Below, in pieces: positions 1 through 20,989 of a DNA stretch of 41,003 nt. The notes below the pieces were generated by a model that saw nothing but the letters and a program-made list of their open reading frames with translations, did not search any database and was not told the DNA's origin. Positions within the stretch are counted from its first letter, which is position 1; each line of letters begins with the position of its first letter. Location: the NCBI GenBank assembly GCA_027292975.1, contig JAPUGG010000274.1:1-41003 (forward strand), in the 5' to 3' direction. The DNA comes from Alphaproteobacteria bacterium. GTDB taxonomy: Bacteria; Pseudomonadota; Alphaproteobacteria; SMXQ01. A program made the translations under genes and the position numbers.

Positions 1-1712
<1,712 letters not shown>

Positions 1713-1885
1713 AGAGTGATCGCCCGCGGCATCCGGCACCACGGGTTCAGGCCCCTCGTGGTTGCGAGGGACAAATTGTCGGTGGGGTTCGCGGTATCAG
1801 CGGCCCAGGGATAGGACCGAGGGACGGTGATTCGGCCGAGGGGCGTCAGGACCGGCCCGAAGGCATTGGAAGGCTAGGAGAACAT

Positions 1886-3772
1886 ATGTCTGATCAACAC
1901 GCCGGAGATGTGGCCGAGCCGTTTTCGACCGGCGAGAACTTTGCCGAACTGCTCGAGGAATCTCTTGGCGACAGAGGCCCCGTCGAGGGCACCGTGCTCA
2001 AAGGCACCGTCGTCTCCATAGAGAACGACATGGCGGTGGTCGACGTCGGACTCAAGTCCGCCGGCCGCGTCGCCCTGAAGGAATTCTCCTCTCCCGGCCA
2101 GGGCGCCGAATTGAAGCCCGGGGACGAGGTCGAGGTCTATCTCGAGCGCTACGAGGACCGCAACGGCGAAGCGGTGCTCAGCCGCGACAAGGCTCGGCGG
2201 GAAGAGGCCTGGACCCTGCTTGAAAGCGCGTACAATGATAACCTGCGCGTCTCCGGAACCATCTTCGGCCGCGTCAAGGGCGGGTTCACCGTGGATCTTT
2301 CGGGCGCGGTGGCGTTTCTCCCGGGGTCCCAGGTCGACATCCGGCCGGTGCGCGACGTCAGCCACCTGATGAGCACGCCCCAGGAATTTCATATCCTCAA
2401 GATGGACCGCTCTCGGGGCAATATCGTGGTTTCGCGCCGCGCCGTGCTCGAGGAATCCCGCGCCGAAGCCCGTTCCGAACTGATCGCCAACCTGAAAGAG
2501 GGGCAGGTGCTGGAGGGCGTCGTCAAGAACATCACCGACTACGGCGCCTTTATCGACTTGGGCGGCGTCGACGGCTTGCTGCATATCACCGACATCTCGT
2601 GGCGGCGCATTAGCCATCCCAGCGAAGCGGTCAATGTGGGCGATTCGGTTAAAGTTCAGGTGATCCGATTCAACCCCGAGAACCAGCGCATCAGCCTCGG
2701 CATGAAACAGCTGGAATCCGACCCCTGGGAAGGCATCGAGAAGAATTATCCGATCGCAACCAAGCTCAAGGGGCGGGTGACCAACATCACCGATTACGGC
2801 GCCTTCGTGGAGCTCGAGCCCGGCGTCGAGGCCCTGGTCCATGTGTCCGAAATGAGTTGGACCAAGAAGAACATCCACCCGGGCAAGATCGTCTCCACTT
2901 CCCAGGAACTGGAAGTCATGGTGCTCGACGTCGATCCCCAGAAGCGTCGCATCAGCCTCGGCCTAAAACAGTGCACCGAAAATCCCTGGGAAGCCTTTGC
3001 ACAGCAATACAGCGCCGGCGCCGAGCTCGAAGGCGAAATCAAGAACATCACCGAATTCGGCCTGTTTGTCGGCCTGCCCGGCGATATCGACGGCATGGTG
3101 CACCTTTCGGATCTCGACTGGACCCGGCCGGGCGAAGAGGCCATCGCCGATTTCGAGAAAGGCGATATGGCCAAGGTCAAGGTGCTGGAAATCGACGTCG
3201 AGAAGGAGCGCGTCAGTCTCGGTATCAAGCAGCTGACCGATGACCCGTTCGAAGGTCGGGCGGCGGCACTCAAGAGGGGCAAGGTCGTGACCTGTACCGT
3301 CAAGGTGGTCACCGACCGTGGTATCGAGGTCGACGTGGATGGCGCCCATGGCTTCATCCGCAGGGCGGATCTCGCCCGCGACCGGTCCGAGCAGCGTCCC
3401 GACCGTTTCGCCGTCGGCGAAAAGGTCGATGCCAGAATCACCAATATCGATCGCGCCTCGCGCAAGCTGTCGCTCTCCATCAAGGCCCACGAATTCGCCG
3501 AAGAGAAGGAAGCCATGGCCCAATTCGGGTCTTCGGATTCCGGCGCCAGCCTGGGGGACATCCTGGGCGCCGCCATCTCCAAGGCCAACCAACAGCGCGC
3601 CCAGGGCGACGACGCCCCTGCGGAGGAAACCCCAACCGAGGACGCCGCCGAGGAGGACACCCCGGCGGAGGATGCACCCGAGGATGCCGCCAAGGGCACG
3701 GCCAGCGAAGAGTCCCCGGCAGCGGTTGATGCCGCCGCCGCGGACGAGGACAAAAAAGACAAGGACGGCTGA
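1886..3772 (+). CDS. rpsA: 30S ribosomal protein S1
   Basis: Repeated S1 domains (NITDYGAFIDLGGVDGLLHITDISW, NITDYGAFVELEPGVEALVHVSEMSW, NITEFGLFVGLPGDIDGMVHLSDLDW); located downstream of cmk; AGGAG upstream of start. Confidence 0.97.
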   Translation: MSDQHAGDVAEPFSTGENFAELLEESLGDRGPVEGTVLKGTVVSIENDMAVVDVGLKSAGRVALKEFSSPGQGAELKPGDEVEVYLERYEDRNGEAVLSRDKARREEAWTLLESAYNDNLRVSGTIFGRVKGGFTVDLSGAVAFLPGSQVDIRPVRDVSHLMSTPQEFHILKMDRSRGNIVVSRRAVLEESRAEARSELIANLKEGQVLEGVVKNITDYGAFIDLGGVDGLLHITDISWRRISHPSEAVNVGDSVKVQVIRFNPENQRISLGMKQLESDPWEGIEKNYPIATKLKGRVTNITDYGAFVELEPGVEALVHVSEMSWTKKNIHPGKIVSTSQELEVMVLDVDPQKRRISLGLKQCTENPWEAFAQQYSAGAELEGEIKNITEFGLFVGLPGDIDGMVHLSDLDWTRPGEEAIADFEKGDMAKVKVLEIDVEKERVSLGIKQLTDDPFEGRAAALKRGKVVTCTVKVVTDRGIEVDVDGAHGFIRRADLARDRSEQRPDRFAVGEKVDARITNIDRASRKLSLSIKAHEFAEEKEAMAQFGSSDSGASLGDILGAAISKANQQRAQGDDAPAEETPTEDAAEEDTPAEDAPEDAAKGTASEESPAAVDAAAADEDKKDKDG

Positions 3773-3848
3773 AACTTTCGCCGTGGATCGGCTATACTCC
3801 GCCTAGCGGCGGCGGCGCCGTCCCAAGGAGACCACCGGTTCAGGTTTC

Positions 3849-4751
3849 ATGACCTTCGAATCCGATTCCCTGATCGATCGCAAGAGGCTCAAGCGTCGGC
3901 TGGCAAACTGGCGGCTTGCCGCGGTCATCGCCGTCGCCAGCGTGGGGCTGGCGTTGTTTGCCCGGTTCGATTCTTTTGAAAGCCGCAATCACGTGGCCCG
4001 GCTGTCGGTCAATGGCATTATTGTCGAGGATCGAAAGCGCGCTCAAGCCCTTGACCGCGTTGCCCGGGACAACAGCGCCAAGGCGCTGATCGTCCGCATC
4101 AACTCTCCCGGCGGTACCGTGGTGGGCGGCGAAACGCTCTATCACAAGCTGCGCAAGGTTGCCGCCAAGAAGCCGGTGGTCACCGTCATCGGCACGCTCG
4201 GCACGTCCGGCGGCTATATGGTTGCCATAGGCGGCGACCGCATTTTCGCACGGTCGGGCACCATTACCGGCTCCATCGGCGTGATCATGCAGACCACCGA
4301 CCTGACCGGTATGCTGAAGAAGTTCGGCATCACGACCGAGTCCATCAAGTCGGATCCGCTGAAGGCCGTGCCGTCACCCTTAGAGCCGCTGACCGACAAT
4401 GCGCGCGCGCTCATCAAGACGGTCATCAGGGATACCCATCGCCAATTCGTCTCCATGGTGGCCAACCGGCGTGGCCTCGGCCCCGACAAGGCCCGGAAAT
4501 TGGGCGATGGCCGGATTTTTACCGGCGACCAGGCGCTTTCCAACGGGCTGATCGACGCCATCGGCGGCGAAGCCGAGGCGCGGGACTGGCTGGCCAAAGA
4601 GCACGGCATCACCGCGAGCCTCCCCGTGCGTGACGTGCGAATCAACAGAGGCACCAAGAATCTGTTCGGGCTGGTCGAGGAAATGTTTGGAAAAACATTG
4701 TTTTCTGAACGACTTAGACTTGACGGGCTGATTTCCCTTTGGCACCCTTAA
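3849..4751 (+). CDS. sppA: Signal peptide peptidase SppA, short form (S49 family)
   Basis: [45 protein letters not shown]-terminal TM segment. Confidence 0.92.
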
Positions 4752-4824
4752 GTGGATTCTTCGGTTACGATCAGGGCCAGGGGGCAAATTCCCCGGCCCG
4801 GAAGCGGAGGGGTACGACGGCCCC

Positions 4825-5106
4825 ATGACAAAATCTGAATTGATCCTGCATCTCGTGGAAAAGAATCCCCATCTCTATCATCGGGATGTGGAACGCATCG
4901 TCACGGCGATCTTCGACGAGATTACCGCCGCGCTGTCACGGGGCGACCGCGTGGAACTGCGCGGCTTCGGCGCGTTTTCCGTAAAGCAGCGCGATGCCCG
5001 GATCGGCCGCAACCCGCGCACCGGGGAAGCGGTCAGTGTCGCCGCGAAGCGGGTGCCGTTTTTCAAGACCGGCAAACTGCTTCGCGAACGGCTCAACGGG
5101 CGTTAG
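4825..5106 (+). CDS. ihfB: Integration host factor subunit beta
   Basis: HU/IHF fold: [49 protein letters not shown]. Confidence 0.96.
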
Positions 5107-5142
5107 CGCCCCCGTCTCCTTGCGGCCCGCGGCGAGGGCGAC

Positions 5143-5538
5143 ATGCCGACCACCACAGGCGATGGCACCGTGCGCATTCTCTTTTGGCTTTTCACCATCC
5201 CCTTTCTGGCACTGGCCGGCGCCTTTGCCGCGGCCAATCACGGGTCATTGACACTCAAGCTCTGGCCCTTTCCCTTCGAGGCCCAGGTGCCGGTCTACGC
5301 CGCCGTCCTGGGCGCGTTTTTCCTCGGCCTCCTGGTGGCGGCCCTATGGTTCTGGACGGCGGGCCTGGGCGGCCGCCTGGCGCGGCGGCGGTTGGCGCGT
5401 CACGAACGCGCCCTAGAGCAGGAAACCGCCCGTCTCAAACGGGAGTTGGCGGAAAAGAACCGCGCCCCGCCCGCCGCCACCGCGGCCGGGCACGACGACA
5501 CCCGGGCGCGTCGGCTGATCGCCGCGGGGGACGGCTGA
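5143..5538 (+). CDS. LapA domain (DUF1049) membrane protein
   Basis: Two TM helices with ANHGSLTLKLWPFPFEAQVPVYAAVLGAFFLGLLVAALWFW; position after ihfB. Confidence 0.85.
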   Translation: MPTTTGDGTVRILFWLFTIPFLALAGAFAAANHGSLTLKLWPFPFEAQVPVYAAVLGAFFLGLLVAALWFWTAGLGGRLARRRLARHERALEQETARLKRELAEKNRAPPAATAAGHDDTRARRLIAAGDG

Positions 5539-5614
5539 CCCGCCCCCTGTTGCGGCGCCGCGATACAGGCTATAAGACCGGCCCCAGAGGCAACCCACCG
5601 GGCGCCACGACACC

Positions 5615-5767
5615 ATGAACGACACCCAGTCCCACGCCGCGGCGGATCGATCCATTCGGCAAAAGATCCTTTGCGCCATCGACACGCCCGACCTAGAGCA
5701 CTTCCGGGCCCTGGCGGCGGCGCTGAAGGGCCGCATCGTCGCCGAGGCGGCGGCCGAGCTCGCCTGA
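5615..5767 (+). pseudogene. pyrF: Remnant of orotidine 5'-phosphate decarboxylase (pyrF) with in-frame internal deletion
   Basis: ATG at 5615, TGA at 5765: MNDTQSHAAADRSIRQKILCAIDTPDLEHFRALAAALKGRIVAEAAAELA*. ILCAIDTPDLEHFRALAAALKGR resembles the PyrF N-terminal strand (CALDTPDLxxALALAxxLxG); the catalytic core is absent; lies between lapA and trpF where pyrF is commonly found. Confidence 0.72.
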
Positions 5768-5771
5768 TCCC

Positions 5772-6419
5772 GTGCCGGTCACCGTCAAGATTTGCGGCAT
5801 CAACGCGCCCGACGCCCTAGAAGCGGCGATCGAGGGAGACGCGGGCTACGTCGGATTGATGTTTTATCCCGCCTCACCCCGCTTCCTCGCCCTCGACGAG
5901 GCGGCCCGGCTAGCGGCCCTGGTGCCGGACGGGATCCAGCGGGTCGGCGTGTTCGTGGACGCGCCCGATGAGGTCATCGCCCGGACCCTGGATGCGGTGC
6001 CCATAGACATGGTGCAACTCCACGGCGCAGAGCCGCCCCGGCGCGTGGCCGAGATCCGAAGCCTCTTCGCGCGACCGGTGATCAAGGCCATCAAGATCGC
6101 CGGGCCCGACGACCTGGCCGAGGCCCGGGCCCAGGAAACGGCGGCCGACATGCTTCTGTTCGACGCCAAACCCCCCACTGATATGACCGACGCGCTTCCC
6201 GGCGGCAACGCGCTGGCCTTCGACTGGCAGATTATCGCCGGCCACCCTTGGGCGCGGCCGTGGATGCTGTCGGGCGGCCTCACCGCCGCCAATCTGGACC
6301 AAGCGGTCGCCACCAGCGGCGCGGCGCGCGTGGATGTTTCCTCGGGCGTGGAAACCGCGCCGGGACGAAAGGACCCGGCGCTGATCCGCGCCTTTATCCA
6401 GGCCGCGGCGGAGATTTAG
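5772..6419 (+). CDS. trpF: Phosphoribosylanthranilate isomerase
   Basis: VKICGINAPDALEAA, GYVGLMFYPASPRFL, DMVQLHGAE, DVSSGVETAPGRKD; GTG start. Confidence 0.96.
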   Translation: MPVTVKICGINAPDALEAAIEGDAGYVGLMFYPASPRFLALDEAARLAALVPDGIQRVGVFVDAPDEVIARTLDAVPIDMVQLHGAEPPRRVAEIRSLFARPVIKAIKIAGPDDLAEARAQETAADMLLFDAKPPTDMTDALPGGNALAFDWQIIAGHPWARPWMLSGGLTAANLDQAVATSGAARVDVSSGVETAPGRKDPALIRAFIQAAAEI

Positions 6420-6501
6420 CGCCCAGCCGCGGACCGGCCGCGGCATTGGAATATGGCGGCGCCGGGAGTATAGTTCGGCACCCCGATGACGAGTAAAAAA
6501 C

Positions 6502-7713
6502 ATGAGCACCGCCAACACCTTCCGGAGCGGGCCCGACGAGGGCGGGCATTTCGATCTTTTCGGTGGCCGATTCGTCGCCGAGACCCTGATGCCGCTGGTC
6601 CTGGACCTGGAACGGGCCTGGAATGAGGCCCGAACCGATCCCGGCTTCGCCGCCGAATTGGACCATTTCTTGGCCCATTACGCGGGCCGGCCCTCGCCGC
6701 TTTATTTCGCCGAACGGCTGACCCAAGAACTCGGCGGCGCCAAGATCTATTTCAAGCGCGACGAGCTCAACCACACCGGCTCCCACAAGATCAACAACTG
6801 CCTGGGCCAGATCCTGCTGGCCCGGCGCATGGGCAAGAAGCGGATCATCGCCGAGACCGGTGCCGGCCAGCATGGGGTGGCGACGGCGACGGTTTGCGCG
6901 CGCTTCGATCTGGACTGCACCATTTACATGGGCGAAATCGACATCGAGCGCCAACAGCCCAACGTCTTTCGCATGAAGCTTCTCGGCGCCAAGGTGGTGC
7001 CGGTTGGTTCGGGCTCGGCCACCCTCAAGGACGCCATGAACGAGGCCCTGCGCGACTGGGTGGCCAGCGTCGAGACCACCTATTACCTGATCGGCACGGC
7101 GGCGGGGCCGCACCCCTATCCGGCAATGGTCCGCGATTTCCAATCGGTGATCGGGCGCGAAACCCGCGACCAGCTGGACGCCGCCGAAGGCCGGGGGCCC
7201 GATACCCTGGTTGCCTGCATCGGCGGCGGATCCAACGCCATCGGCCTGTTTCACACCTTCCTCGACGAACCCGAAGTCGAGATGTTCGCCGTGGAAGCCG
7301 CCGGCGAAGGCATCGAAACGGGGCGCCACGCCGCCTCCATCACCGCCGGCGCGCCGGGGGTCCTGCACGGCAACCGCACCTATCTGTTGCAGGACGATGA
7401 CGGCCAGATCACCGAGGCCCATTCGATCTCCGCCGGCCTCGATTACCCGGGCATCGGCCCGGAGCATGCCTGGCTTCACGACCAGGGGCGTGTCAATTAC
7501 GTCTCGGCCACCGACGCCGAAGCCTTGGCCGCTTTCAAGCTGTGCTCCGAGTTGGAGGGCATCATACCGGCGTTGGAGCCGGCCCATGCGTTGGCCCACG
7601 TCATCCGCCACTGCCCGGGCCTGGCCCGGGACCATCTGGTGGTCATGAACCTGTGCGGCCGGGGCGACAAGGACGTTTTTTCGGTGGCCCGGCACCTGGG
7701 GGTTGAGTTGTGA
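6502..7713 (+). CDS. trpB: Tryptophan synthase beta chain
   Basis: [24 protein letters not shown] (PLP lysine), [28 protein letters not shown]. Confidence 0.98.
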
Positions 7714-8570
7714 GCGCCGGCGCCGCACTCGACCGCATCCATGAGCGCTTCATGGCGCTTCGCGCCGAGGGCCGTGCCGGGCTGGTGACCTTCGTCACCG
7801 CCGGAGATCCCGATTTCGAAACCTCTTCCGAGATTCTCGCCGGACTTCCCCAAGCCGGCGCCGACCTCATCGAGATCGGCATGCCGTTTTCCGACCCCAT
7901 GGCCGATGGCCCCGCCATCCAGGCCTCCAGCCTGCGGGCGCTTGGAGCGGGCCAGAACATGGCCAAGACGCTCGACCTGGTGCGCCGGTTCCGCGCCGTC
8001 GATGCGACGACGCCGCTGGTGCTGATGGGGTACTACAACCCGATTTACAGATACGGCAACTTAACCTTCCTCGACGACGCCAAAAGTGCCGGCGTCGACG
8101 GGCTGATCATCGTCGACCTGCCGCCCGAGGAGGATTCCGAGCTCTGCCTGCCGGCCCGGGACGCGGGCCTCCACTTCATCCGCTTGGCGACGCCCACCAC
8201 CGATGAGGCGCGCCTGGCCAAGGTGCTCACCAACTCGTCGGGCTTCATCTACTACGTTTCCATCACCGGCATCACCGGTACGCGGTCCGCCCGGCCCGGT
8301 GATGTCGGCGAGCGGATCGCCGCCTTGCGGGTGGCCACGGAGCTCCCCATAGCCGTCGGTTTCGGCATCAAGACCCCGGATCAGGCGGCGGCCATCGCGC
8401 GCATCGCCGATGCCGCGGTGGTGGGCTCCGCCCTGGTTGAACGCATTGGCGATGGCCTTGACGCCGAGCGCCGCCCGGGGGCAAATTTGGTGGCCGAAAC
8501 GCTTAGCTTGGTGAAGCAGCTCGCCGCCGGCGTGCGCGGTGCGAGGCACTCAGAGGCCGCCACGGGGTAG
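7710..8570 (+). CDS. trpA: Tryptophan synthase alpha chain
   Basis: [44 protein letters not shown]; 4-bp overlap with trpB. Confidence 0.98.
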
Positions 8571-8573
8571 ACC

Positions 8574-9500
8574 ATGAACTGGCTCACCAATTTCGTCAGA
8601 CCCCGCATCCGCGCCCTGGTGGGCAAGCAAGGCGTGCCCGACAACCTGTGGCACAAATGCACCGCCTGCGAACAGATGATCTTCCACCGGGAATTGTCGG
8701 CCAACCTGTATGTCTGCACCCATTGCGGCCATCACATGCGGATGTCGGCCAAGGACCGGCTGGCCATGATGTTCGACGGCGACAGCACCCAGACCATCGA
8801 ACTCCCCGAGACCATCGACGATCCCCTCAAATTCCGGGACCAGAAACGTTACGGCGACCGCCTCAAGGAAGCCCGGGCGAAGACCGGCATCAATGACGCG
8901 ATTCTGGTCGCCCACGGCGAGATCGGCGGGATTCCCGCGGTCATCGCCGCCTTCGATTTCCGTTTCATGGGCGGCTCCATGGGAACCGCCGTCGGCGACG
9001 GCCTGATCGCCGCCGCCCGCCTGGCGATCTTGCAGGACGCGCCGCTCATCGTTTTCCCGTCCTCGGGCGGGGCGCGCATGCAGGAGGGCATCCTTGCCCT
9101 GATGCAGATGACGCGGAGCACCATCGCCGTCCAGGAGATCCGCGAAGCGGGCCTGCCCTATATCGTCGTGCTGACCGACCCGACCACCGGCGGCGTATCG
9201 GCGAGCTTCGCCATGCTGGGCGATATCTCCATCGCCGAACCCGGGGCGATCATCGGCTTCGCGGGCGCGCGGGTCATCGAAAGTACCATCCACGAGACCC
9301 TGCCCGAAGGTTTCCAGCGCGCCGAATACCTTCTCGAACACGGCATGATCGACATGGTGGTGCCGCGCCATGAGTTGCGCGATACCTTGATCCGGGTGCT
9401 CGACCTCCTGCGCAACCGGAACCCGGCCGCAGAAGTGGTCGCCCTGCCCAAGTCAGAGGCCGCGGCCGATGACCAAGGGAACCCCGCCCCTGAACTCTGA
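8574..9500 (+). CDS. accD: Acetyl-CoA carboxylase carboxyltransferase subunit beta
   Basis: Zn ribbon CTACEQMIF...CTHCGHHMRM; SSGGARMQEG; LTDPTTGGVSASFAMLGD. Confidence 0.97.
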   Translation: MNWLTNFVRPRIRALVGKQGVPDNLWHKCTACEQMIFHRELSANLYVCTHCGHHMRMSAKDRLAMMFDGDSTQTIELPETIDDPLKFRDQKRYGDRLKEARAKTGINDAILVAHGEIGGIPAVIAAFDFRFMGGSMGTAVGDGLIAAARLAILQDAPLIVFPSSGGARMQEGILALMQMTRSTIAVQEIREAGLPYIVVLTDPTTGGVSASFAMLGDISIAEPGAIIGFAGARVIESTIHETLPEGFQRAEYLLEHGMIDMVVPRHELRDTLIRVLDLLRNRNPAAEVVALPKSEAAADDQGNPAPEL

Positions 9501-10776
9501 CGCGGTGCTGGCCCGCCTCCACCAGCTTCACCCAAAAAAGATCGACCTGTCCCTTGGCCGGATCCGGCGTCTCCTGGGCGCCCTGGGCAATCCGGAACGC
9601 GACCTGGCGCCGGTCATCCACGTCGCCGGCACCAACGGCAAGGGCTCCGTCATCGCCTTCATCAAGGCGATGGCGGAAGCCGCCGGGCGCAAGGCCAACG
9701 TCTATACCTCCCCCCACCTGGTGCGCTTCACCGAGCGCATCCGGCCGGCCGGCCGGGAGATCGGCGAGCGCGCCCTTGCCCGATTGCTGGGGGAATGCGA
9801 AGCCGCCAACGCAGCCCATCCCATCACCTTCTTCGAGATCACCACGGCGGCGGCCTTCCTCGCCTTCGCGCGCGTTAAGGCCGACCTCACCTTGATAGAG
9901 ACCGGTCTCGGCGGACGGCTGGACGCCACCAACGTGATCGCACGGCCCAAAGTCACCGTCATCACGCCGGTCTCCCTCGACCATCAGCAATTCTTAGGGC
10001 CGCGCCTTGCCGGCATCGCCGGGGAAAAAGCCGGCATCCTGAAGCGCCGCATTCCCGGCATCATCGGCCCCCAGCATGCCATCGCCGCCCGGGTGATCAA
10101 TCAGCGGGCCGAAGCACTTCAGGCGCCGCTGATCCGCTGGGGCCGGGATTTCAGGGCCGAATTGGGGCCTGGGTCGCTGATTTTCAGCGACCGGGACGGC
10201 GATCTCCAGCTGCCCCGTCCCGGGCTCAAAGGGGCCCACCAAGCCGCCAACGCGGCCATCGCCATCGCCGCGCTCAAGGCACTGGGGGACCGGGACATCG
10301 GCGCCGCCGCCTTCGCCCGGGGGATCGCCCGGGCCACCTGGCCGGCCCGCCTGCAACGGCTGACCGGCGGCCCGTTGAGCGCGCCGCTGATCGCCGGCGG
10401 GTTCGAGGTCTGGCTCGACGGCGGGCACAATCCCGCCGCCGGACGGGCGCTGGCCAAGACACTCAGCCAGGACGGCGGGACGCCGCTTTACCTGGTGGTC
10501 GCCATGGCGGCGCCGAAACGTGCGGGCGAATTCCTAAAACCGCTGGCCGGTCTCGCCCCCAAGGGCCTCTGGGCGGTGGCCGTGCCGGGCGACCACGCTT
10601 CCTTCCCCCCCGATCGCCTCGCCGCCCTCGCCCGGCGTCTCGGCATTGCCGCCCATCGGGCCGCCTCGCCGGCGGCGGCGCTCGGCGCCATCGCGGGGCT
10701 CCCGCCGGGCCGGGTCCTGATCACCGGCTCGCTTTACCTGGCCGGCGCGGTGCTGTCCGAGGATCGCGCCGGATAG
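9469..10776 (+). CDS. folC: Bifunctional folylpolyglutamate synthase / dihydrofolate synthase
   Basis: VIHVAGTNGKGSVIAFI, YTSPHLVRFTERI, LIETGLGGRLDATNVI, SLDHQQFLG; overlaps the accD 3' end (start codon not certain). Confidence 0.94.
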   Translation: MTKGTPPLNSDAVLARLHQLHPKKIDLSLGRIRRLLGALGNPERDLAPVIHVAGTNGKGSVIAFIKAMAEAAGRKANVYTSPHLVRFTERIRPAGREIGERALARLLGECEAANAAHPITFFEITTAAAFLAFARVKADLTLIETGLGGRLDATNVIARPKVTVITPVSLDHQQFLGPRLAGIAGEKAGILKRRIPGIIGPQHAIAARVINQRAEALQAPLIRWGRDFRAELGPGSLIFSDRDGDLQLPRPGLKGAHQAANAAIAIAALKALGDRDIGAAAFARGIARATWPARLQRLTGGPLSAPLIAGGFEVWLDGGHNPAAGRALAKTLSQDGGTPLYLVVAMAAPKRAGEFLKPLAGLAPKGLWAVAVPGDHASFPPDRLAALARRLGIAAHRAASPAAALGAIAGLPPGRVLITGSLYLAGAVLSEDRAG

Positions 10777-10804
10777 CGCATTAAACCGATAAGGGGAATT
10801 CCGT

Positions 10805-12412
10805 TCAGGCGACGGCGTGGATGGCCGCCTCCTTGACGCTGTCGGGCACCTGGGGCTCGAATTCCTTGAAGTTTTCTTCGAACATGCGCGCGACGTCGTG
10901 GGCGGCCTTGTCATAGGCCGCCTTGTCGGACCAGGTGGTCCTGGGATCGAGCACGTCCCGGGGCACGTCGGGGCAGCTCTCGGGCACCAGCACCCGGAAA
11001 TTGGGGTCGGGCGTCATGGCAACGTGGTCGAGCTCTCCGGCCAGGGCGGCGCGCAGCATGGCCCTGGTATAGGCGATTTTCATGCGGCTTCCGACCCCAT
11101 AGGCGCCGCCGGTCCAGCCGGTATTGACCAGCCAGCAGTTGGTTTCGTGCCGGGCGATGCGTTCGCCCAGGAGCTTGGCGTAAACCGTGGGATGCCGCGG
11201 CATGAAGGGGGCGCCGAAACAGGTTGAGAAGGTCGCCTCGGGTTTGGTCACGCCGCGCTCGGTGCCGGCCACCCGCGCCGTGTAGCCCGACAGGAAATGG
11301 TACATGGCCTGGTCGGGGGTCATGCGGCTGATCGGCGGCAGCACGCCGAAGGCGTCGGCCGTCAGCATCACCACATGGTCGGGATGGCCCGAGGTCAGGG
11401 TGTCGGAAATGTTGGCAATGAACTCGATGGGATACGACACCCGCGTGTTTTCGGTGAGAGCCTCGGAATCGAAGTCGAGCGCGCGCGTCACCGGATCGAT
11501 GACGACGTTTTCCAGGACCGTGCCGAAGCGATGGGTGGTGGCGTAGATCTCCGGTTCCGCTTCTTGGGACAAGCGGATCGCCTTGGCATAGCAGCCGCCC
11601 TCGAAATTGAAGATGCCGTTGTCGGACCAGCCGTGTTCGTCGTCGCCCACCAAGATGCGCGAGCCATCCGCCGACAGCGTCGTCTTGCCGGTTCCCGACA
11701 GGCCGAAGAAGATCGCCGCATCGCCCCCATCGCCGATATTGGCCGAGCAATGCATGGGCATCACGCCCTGGGCCGGCAGCAGGTAGTTGAGGATCGAAAA
11801 CACCGATTTCTTGATCTCCCCGGCATACCAGGTGCCGGTGATCAGCACCTCACGGGCGGCGAAATTCACGATCACGCAGATGTCGGAATTGGTGCCGTCG
11901 GTGGCCGGGTCGACGTTGAGCCCCGGCGCGTGCAGGATGGTGAAGGCGGGCTCAAAAGAGGCTAACGCATCATCCGCCGGCTGGATGAACATGTTGCGCG
12001 TGAACAGCGCATGCCACGCGGTTTCGGTGACCACCCGCACGTTCAGCCGGTAATCGAGATCGGCGCCGGCATAGCTGTCCTGGATGAACAGGTCGCGGTC
12101 GACGTAATAATCCAGGATCTTGCCGCGGATGGCGGCATAGTGCTCTTGGGAAATCGCCCGGTTGACCGACCCCCACCAGATATCGTCGCGGCTGGTGGCT
12201 TCCTCGACGATGAACTTGTCATTAGGCGAACGGCCGGTGTATTCGCCGGTCTCCACCGCCAACGCCCCGCCGGGGACTAAAAGGCCTTCGCCGCGTTTGA
12301 TCGATTCCTCGACCAAGGCAGGCGCGGCCATGTTCCAATAGGCCGCGCGGGCACCTTTGATCCCGTGCTTATCCAAGCCGATGCTGCTCTTGACGGATCC
12401 CCGCTCTTCCAA
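10805..12412 (-). CDS. pckA: Phosphoenolpyruvate carboxykinase (ATP)
   Basis: MHCSANIGDGGDAAIFFGLSGTGKTTLSAD, GRSPNDKFIVEE, NTGWTGGAYGVGSRM. Confidence 0.98.
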   Translation of the reverse strand: MEERGSVKSSIGLDKHGIKGARAAYWNMAAPALVEESIKRGEGLLVPGGALAVETGEYTGRSPNDKFIVEEATSRDDIWWGSVNRAISQEHYAAIRGKILDYYVDRDLFIQDSYAGADLDYRLNVRVVTETAWHALFTRNMFIQPADDALASFEPAFTILHAPGLNVDPATDGTNSDICVIVNFAAREVLITGTWYAGEIKKSVFSILNYLLPAQGVMPMHCSANIGDGGDAAIFFGLSGTGKTTLSADGSRILVGDDEHGWSDNGIFNFEGGCYAKAIRLSQEAEPEIYATTHRFGTVLENVVIDPVTRALDFDSEALTENTRVSYPIEFIANISDTLTSGHPDHVVMLTADAFGVLPPISRMTPDQAMYHFLSGYTARVAGTERGVTKPEATFSTCFGAPFMPRHPTVYAKLLGERIARHETNCWLVNTGWTGGAYGVGSRMKIAYTRAMLRAALAGELDHVAMTPDPNFRVLVPESCPDVPRDVLDPRTTWSDKAAYDKAAHDVARMFEENFKEFEPQVPDSVKEAAIHAVA

Positions 12413-12482
12413 TTCCTGATCTCCAGTTTGCGCCCGGGCAGGCCTCGGGCAACCTTTATATACGGGTTCGCCCTAGGGGATG

Positions 12483-12532
12483 CTAGAGCATTTTCCGGCC
12501 CAATTGAACCATTCGACCGGAAAATCCTCTAG
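12483..12532. repeat. REP-like palindrome (near-perfect 16-bp arms)
   Basis: CTAGAGCATTTTCCGG (12483-12498) vs reverse complement of CCGGAAAATCCTCTAG (12517-12532), one mismatch; related in sequence to the 20749-20989 element arms. Confidence 0.8.
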
Positions 12533-13224
12533 TCCGCCGGCCGGCCTGAAAATCGGCCGAGAAAGATGCTCACGGCGACGCCGAGAACGGCCCAGAACAC
12601 CGCCGAGGAGGTCATCGAAGCGGCCACGAAGGCGGCCACCAGCGCCGCCGGCAGGGCGGCGCCCGCGCCGGTGGCCGCTGCCGGCCCGCCGGCGATAAAC
12701 GGGAGCGCCAACAGGGCGAGGCCCGCGGCGCGCCAGCGCCGGCGCCCGGCAAAGACCACCAGGCCCAGGCCCGCCCCGGTGGCGCCCACCGCGCCCAGCC
12801 ACCACAATTGCCGCGTGGCGAGGTCGCTTTCGGCCATCCCCGGAAGGTGCGGAGGGACCACCAGGGCCGGGGCAAGGGTGAACACCGCAAACCCCGCGAT
12901 TCCCCAGAGGAGGCCCTCCATCACGGTGGGGTCGCGGCCGGAAAAGGCGATGGCGCCGGCCAGCAGGAGACCGAACCCGGCGCCCGTGAGCAGGCTGGCG
13001 GCCAGGGTCAAGCCGGCGCGCGCAAGGGATTGCCGCCGGCTGTCCGCCGCCACCACCACCGAGCCCGCCGAGCCCCCGCCGAGGCCCGCCCGGGCCAGGG
13101 CCGCCGCCTCGAAGATTTCCGCCTGGTGGATGAGTGGCACCACCTTCAGCGCCTGGACGGTGAACCCCACGGCGCCCGCGATTAGCCCTGCCATGATCCC
13201 GGCCAGCAGGATGCGGCGCATCAC
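12529..13224 (-). CDS. cbtA: CbtA-family cobalt transporter subunit
   Basis: MMRRILLAGIMAGLIAGAVGFTVQALKVVPLIHQAEIFEAA, multiple TM segments, HLPGMAESDLATRQLWWLGA; paired with cbtB. Confidence 0.85.
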   Translation of the reverse strand: MMRRILLAGIMAGLIAGAVGFTVQALKVVPLIHQAEIFEAAALARAGLGGGSAGSVVVAADSRRQSLARAGLTLAASLLTGAGFGLLLAGAIAFSGRDPTVMEGLLWGIAGFAVFTLAPALVVPPHLPGMAESDLATRQLWWLGAVGATGAGLGLVVFAGRRRWRAAGLALLALPFIAGGPAAATGAGAALPAALVAAFVAASMTSSAVFWAVLGVAVSIFLGRFSGRPAD

Positions 13225-13252
13225 CGCCCGGCCCCGTCAGTGGCAGGGGCCA

Positions 13253-13444
13253 TCAGTGGCAGGGGAAGGTGAAACCGTGGCGCACGTCATGGGCGGCGTC
13301 GTGGAGCAGGTCGGAATGGGCGAACCCGGTGCCCAGCAACAGGAACGACCCGAGCAGAACCGCGATCAGCCCCGCGGAAAGGTGTTGAGAATGGGTTCTC
13401 GCCCACGCGCCCGCCTTGGAATCCTCGTTCAATGACATGCCCAT
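13253..13444 (-). CDS. cbtB: CbtB-family cobalt transporter subunit (63 aa)
   Basis: One TM helix plus His-bearing tail FAHSDLLHDAAHDVRHGFTFPCH; immediately upstream of cbtA. Confidence 0.82.
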   Translation of the reverse strand: MGMSLNEDSKAGAWARTHSQHLSAGLIAVLLGSFLLLGTGFAHSDLLHDAAHDVRHGFTFPCH

Positions 13445-13450
13445 GGCGTT

Positions 13451-14161
13451 CTATTGAAAGAGTCCCTGGGCCGATGCCACGCGCCAGGCGATGGAAACGC
13501 CCAGCACCACGGTGGCGGCGCCGATCCCCGCGGTCAGGCCACGGAAGGCCACGCTCAGGCGGCCCGCGGTGAAGCGGAGCGGCAGGGCGATGGCGCAGGA
13601 CAGGATTGCCATGCCGACGACGGAACCGAGGCCGAACAGCAGCATGTAGGCGAACCCCAGCCACAGCGAGGAGATGGTGCCCAGGGTCAGCAACACCAAG
13701 GCGGCGGAGCCGGCCAGGCCGTGGACGAAGCCGACCAGCAGGGCGCGGATGGGAAGGCCCCTGGGATGGGCATGGTGATGGGCGGAGACATCATGACCGC
13801 CACCCGGCGCATGGCGATGGGCGTGGAAATGACGCGCACCGCCATGGGCATGGGCATGGAAATGGGCCTTGCGCCGCGTCAAGCGGACCATGACGTCGAG
13901 CCCGAGTCCGACCAGCATCAGGCCGACCACGAATTCCAGGATTAGGGCGACGGTTTCCGGCACCACCCAATCCAGCATCAGCACCACGGAGCCGATGAGG
14001 AACAAGGTCAGGGTATGACCGAGACCCCAGGCCACGCCCATCCGGGTGGTTTCGCCGATGGATTGAGAGCCCGAGGCCAAGCTTGCCACGGCGGCGACGT
14101 GGTCGGCTTCAAGGGCATGCTTCATGCCGATCAGAAAGCCGAGCCCCAAGACGGAAAGCAT
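13451..14161 (-). CDS. Nickel/cobalt (NiCoT/UreH-like) membrane transporter with His-rich loop
   Basis: HX4DH signature in GMKHALEADHVAAV; loop AHFHAHAHGGARHFHAHRHAPGGGHDVSAHHHAHPRG; six or so TM segments. Confidence 0.82.
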   Translation of the reverse strand: MLSVLGLGFLIGMKHALEADHVAAVASLASGSQSIGETTRMGVAWGLGHTLTLFLIGSVVLMLDWVVPETVALILEFVVGLMLVGLGLDVMVRLTRRKAHFHAHAHGGARHFHAHRHAPGGGHDVSAHHHAHPRGLPIRALLVGFVHGLAGSAALVLLTLGTISSLWLGFAYMLLFGLGSVVGMAILSCAIALPLRFTAGRLSVAFRGLTAGIGAATVVLGVSIAWRVASAQGLFQ

Positions 14162-20715: not shown

Positions 20716-20748
20716 CGCCAACGGCTTGTGGGCGGCCGGGGAGAGGCC

Positions 20749-20989
20749 GAGAGCATTTCCGGGCCAGATTGAACCATTTGACCGGGATGATTTTGCCCCA
20801 AGGCTAGGCGCGCGTCGCATGGCGATGTGGGGCATCGGCGAAGGTGGGCAACAACGCCTCGGGGTAAAAGCACCCGGCCTTTGGTGGGGCTCGTCATGCG
20901 AAGCGTGCATCCGCACGACGCCCCGCGTCTGCCCTGGAAACCGATGAGCACCCATCAAATTGATTCAATCTGGCCCGGAAGTGCTCTAG
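20749..20989. repeat. ~240-bp intergenic element bounded by ~31-33-bp imperfect terminal inverted repeats (MITE/REP-composite-like)
   Basis: Left arm 20749-20779 GAGAGCATTTCCGGGCCAGATTGAACCATTT; right arm 20957-20989 reverse complement CTAGAGCACTTCCGGGCCAGATTGAATCAATTT; internal inverted repeat TTTTGCCCCAAGGC (20791-20804) / GCCTCGGGGTAAAA (20856-20869). Confidence 0.75.

Follow-up and report, generated by a model that had tools for sequence, protein, structure and literature searches.

A pyrF remnant with a clean in-frame internal deletion in a draft alphaproteobacterial genome

Comparison of an alphaproteobacterial contig with its closest available relatives confirmed that a 50-codon open reading frame between lapA and trpF is a remnant of pyrF, the gene for OMP decarboxylase, with a clean in-frame internal deletion. 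The remnant (5615–5767, + strand; ATG to TGA, 50 amino acids) lies in the 41,003-nt stretch of DNA analysed here (the window, on contig C195), downstream of lapA (5143–5538, +; LapA_dom, PF06305, E = 1.3e-8) and just ahead of trpF (5772–6419, +; PF00697, E = 2.8e-40). Start, stop and frame survive as the original prediction described, and the frame has no internal stop or frameshift; the GTG start of trpF follows the remnant stop after 4 intervening nucleotides. Against the intact PyrF of G003 (MAG N075bin64), a genome of the same genus that shares the gene order and served as the reference for the intact gene of 253 codons, the peptide aligns ungapped over residues 1–41, 31 of which are identical (76% at the amino acid level; pairwise E = 1e-13). 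The PyrF N terminus that had been read in the first ~37 residues is thus homologous as proposed, but the retained part extends to residue ~40–41, and within it codons 27–32 (LEHFRA) are atypical for PyrF and match the end of a dispersed repeat. Codon-by-codon comparison showed that codons 1–26 (5615–5692, +) are homologous to G003 codons 1–26 and that the pyrF match takes up again at codons 33–39 (5711–5731, +), continuing to the deletion junction. The proposed C-terminal end is likewise present, carried by DNA rather than by protein alone: the final ~12 codons with the stop (5732–5767, +) are 36 nt that match the terminus of the G003 gene at 94% and run gapless into trpF.

By slot and frame, and in its start region as well as its 3′ end, the remnant resembles the intact pyrF of the genus, and its collinear homology to both ends of the orthologue in the same slot marks it, as assembled, as a deletion remnant. 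Unlike PyrF proper (PF00215; NF001273, TIGR01740), it has lost 203 of 253 codons, including the whole TIM-barrel core, as had been noticed originally, and the catalytic residues. No whole-domain match to PF00215 or to the NCBIfam pyrF models was found, and the peptide matched no Pfam or NCBIfam family at E ≤ 1, compared with 252 bits for the sister PyrF; a 50-residue peptide is too short for a profile match. Because the catalytic DLKFHDIPN (D-K-D) motif and the GRPIT phosphate loop both fall within the missing codons, as read from the plus-strand rows of an alignment of relatives (G003, G004 and G006) and from a second comparison with orientation-corrected loci, the known chemistry of the family implies that the remnant product cannot decarboxylate OMP and is non-functional as an OMP decarboxylase.

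The window is collinear with G003 over ~37 kb at 88–91% identity, with flanking synteny intact. Window positions 1604–5741 align to positions 1–4080 of G003 contig C97 and positions 5732–13441 to 4680–12419, and the alignment diagonal shifts by 609 bp inside pyrF, in frame, which corresponds to the missing 203 codons (80% of the gene). The bases at 5732–5741 (+) align to each edge of the 609-bp segment that G003 has in addition, and mark the junction as a short shared, CGCATCG-like stretch. Across the pyrF genes of related genomes, compared with orientation-corrected loci, the 3′ edge of the missing stretch is CGCATCG-like and the 5′ edge TCGGCGG-like. The missing stretch has a GC content of 73.9%, compared with 67.6% for the contig, and includes one 60-mer at 85%, within the top 1% of the contig. 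Such a short sequence common to the two edges is compatible with an in vivo deletion between short repeats and with a false join alike. Deletion between short direct repeats is a known route in bacteria, and the resulting internal-deletion pseudogenes (PMC5426353) likewise show one clean join inside a short shared sequence; here, however, the junction is read against G003 rather than the intact allele of the same species, and may be an artefact.

The remnant is ordinary in kind, as a truncated gene, but unusual in its target, because pyrF was kept by every other family genome examined (n = 10) and no bypass was found. A PF00215 search recovered pyrF in 10 of 10 of these genomes (one copy cut at a contig end) and in 14 of 14 controls, so the relatives do not share the deletion, a question that the original prediction had raised. 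The order ihfB–lapA–pyrF–trpF–trpB was found in the examined family genomes whose fetched DNA extends far enough, in agreement with the claim that pyrF commonly occupies this slot, and the short form was not found in any other genome searched. A TrpF scan of a one-genome-per-species collection returned the sister and more distant relatives and no second genome of the same species. The remnant's own genome is a draft of 331 contigs (2.58 Mb, 91.75% complete); in this assembled part PF00215 gave no match, and the suggested search with a full-length PyrF, using the sister protein at E ≤ 10, returned the remnant alone, leaving no intact copy elsewhere in the assembly.

pyrF is normally essential for making RNA building blocks, and without OMP decarboxylase or uracil/uridine salvage, UMP has no visible source. 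The pathway up to OMP is represented by pyrB, pyrD and pyrE, all present with open frames. For uracil phosphoribosyltransferase (upp, TIGR01091) the genome gave only a fragment match below the cut-off, and it gave no match for uridine kinase (udk, TIGR00235), the PRK fold containing it (PF00485) or NCS2 permeases (PF00860); the same searches yielded nothing above cut-off in three genomes of the genus. Since neither pyrF nor upp, udk or an NCS2 permease was found, the genotype as assembled should, on its gene content, not make UMP. Either the ~8% left unassembled contains a gene that rescues the pathway, or the allele with which the organism works is not the one on this contig. A real deletion would predict a lineage that is auxotrophic for pyrimidines and lacks any recognised gene for their salvage, a dependence relevant for its cultivation. 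If the fault lies in the assembly, a clean in-frame collapse that leaves start, stop and spacing intact has mimicked biology, and metabolic models built from draft genomes would contain a false call of auxotrophy.

Retention of the upstream pathway together with the lack of a detected route to UMP leads us to favour, narrowly, a collapse of the assembly or consensus, or a contig that followed a minority deletion variant, a reading to which we give an even chance. The pyrF core would have been removed between two short matching stretches, the remnant being what stays, and the core would be missing from the assembly alone or from a minority variant that the contig followed. A false join of the two ends at the short shared GC-rich stretch could stem from the assembler, from a chimeric read or from gap closing, and the GC-rich missing sequence may have had lower short-read coverage. 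The in-frame loss relative to an intact same-genus gene in the same slot, the universal presence of pyrF among the relatives, the lack of a second pyrF piece in the genome and the fragmentation of the draft all agree with such a collapse. Against it, the 37-kb region of synteny contains no second gene conserved in G003 that has been cut short in this way, and 55 kb of alignment revealed no further loss of more than 500 bp, so a general tendency of the assembly to collapse is not obvious. A literature search on false deletions in draft genomes gave nothing useful.

A further lesion, which would fit a gene in decay better, also counts against collapse. Codons 27–32 of the remnant consist of an 18-bp block, CTAGAGCACTTCCGGGCC (5693–5710, +), which sits in register with G003 codons 27–32 with its length unchanged; its bases diverge strongly from G003, and the adjoining bases on both sides match almost perfectly. 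The block equals the terminal 18 bp of an element at 20748–20989 (strand unassigned), and the LEHFRA stretch that it encodes is probably repeat-derived, judging from these matches. Only two 18-mers are common to separate places in the window, the block being one of them, and four matches with at most three mismatches were found where 0.07 were expected from shuffles; a chance origin was rejected on these grounds. The element is ~242 bp long and absent from G003; its 30-nt terminal inverted repeats are 90% complementary, its DNA fold has a z-score of −6.95, and its right end provides the 18-bp match. A second copy (L165, G000:C235) has its ends at 4497 and 4764, and partial copies occur in other sampled contigs. 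Short length, terminal inverted repeats, several copies and both occupied and empty sites, the empty one in G003, make the element MITE-like. Ends of this kind and related ~50-bp palindromes recur at dispersed sites in 208 kb sampled from the own genome and, more sparsely, in 254 kb sampled from the sister. Insertion of the whole element followed by simple excision fails to account for a replacement of 18 bases with no change in length.

The match of the remnant to a dispersed-repeat end is new here, and so is the observation that no route for pyrimidine salvage is visible. As with prokaryotic MITEs and Rickettsia palindromic elements (PMC10969869), an element end lies in frame within a protein gene; here, however, only 18 bp of the end are present and bases were replaced rather than added, and the likeness concerns in-frame position without implying kinship of the repeat families. 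The block modestly favours real decay of pyrF, but does not settle the question, because working genes can tolerate element sequence in frame, as with the palindromic elements of Rickettsia. Where the 5′ part of pyrF is retained, its codon changes lean towards the nonsynonymous (10 versus 2 synonymous, compared with 30 versus 29 in trpF; Fisher p = 0.055); this lean also speaks against collapse, and half of the changes stem from the block.

Genuine recent loss of pyrF, which we judge a little short of evenly probable, would have begun with the repeat-derived block in helix 1, followed by deletion of the 609 bp through RecA-independent recombination or slippage between short direct repeats. Pyrimidine auxotrophy would follow, unless a second pyrF or salvage genes lie within the unassembled ~8%. 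The clean join at a short shared sequence, the element end within the same remnant, the nonsynonymous excess and a syntenic region otherwise free of truncated genes are consistent with such a loss, and PF00215 is absent from several small alphaproteobacterial genomes. Loss fits less well with the lack of uracil or uridine salvage genes, the presence of the pathway up to OMP, the retention of pyrF in all other family genomes examined and the remnant itself, which has no stop, frameshift or other decay. It is rather unlikely that this is a free-living alphaproteobacterium with a route to OMP that truly lacks pyrF, its loss having started from a palindromic-element end in the first helix, and that takes up its neighbours' pyrimidines through an unrecognised salvage route.

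Of the three origins first proposed, collapse and clean internal deletion both stand; the third, a micro-ORF kept by selection because it couples translation into trpF, gained no positive support and appears very improbable. Start, stop and the spacing to trpF are preserved, as it would predict, but the native TGATCCCGTG spacing, identical in G003, merely came down from the full-length gene, and the short form, confined to this genome among those searched, offers no conservation to assess. That the remnant is a chance ORF unrelated to pyrF, as the lack of a Pfam or NCBIfam match for the peptide alone might suggest, is refuted by the synteny, the collinear DNA matches on both sides and the peptide–PyrF alignment, and we give it almost no credence.

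Other sequence features were seen beside these. Solitary half-ends of ~17–18 bp without the rest of the element, like the block in pyrF, occur at L153:19288, L155:4150 and L174:11272. At 12483–12532 the window contains a 50-bp palindromic mini-element, CTAGAGCATTTTCCGG...CCGGAAAATCCTCTAG. Rfam matched nothing in the window, and a literature search for the sequence turned up no paper; the family of the mini-element occupies about one locus per 10–15 kb in sampled G000 contigs and is rarer in G003. About 124 bp of the sister (G003:C97 12419–12552) are absent from the window at 13441–13451. In a ribosomal protein S1-like ORF (1886–3772), the C-terminal tail at 3617–3734 is longer than that of the sister, owing to three in-frame indels (18, 12 and 42 bp) within an acidic/alanine-rich stretch.
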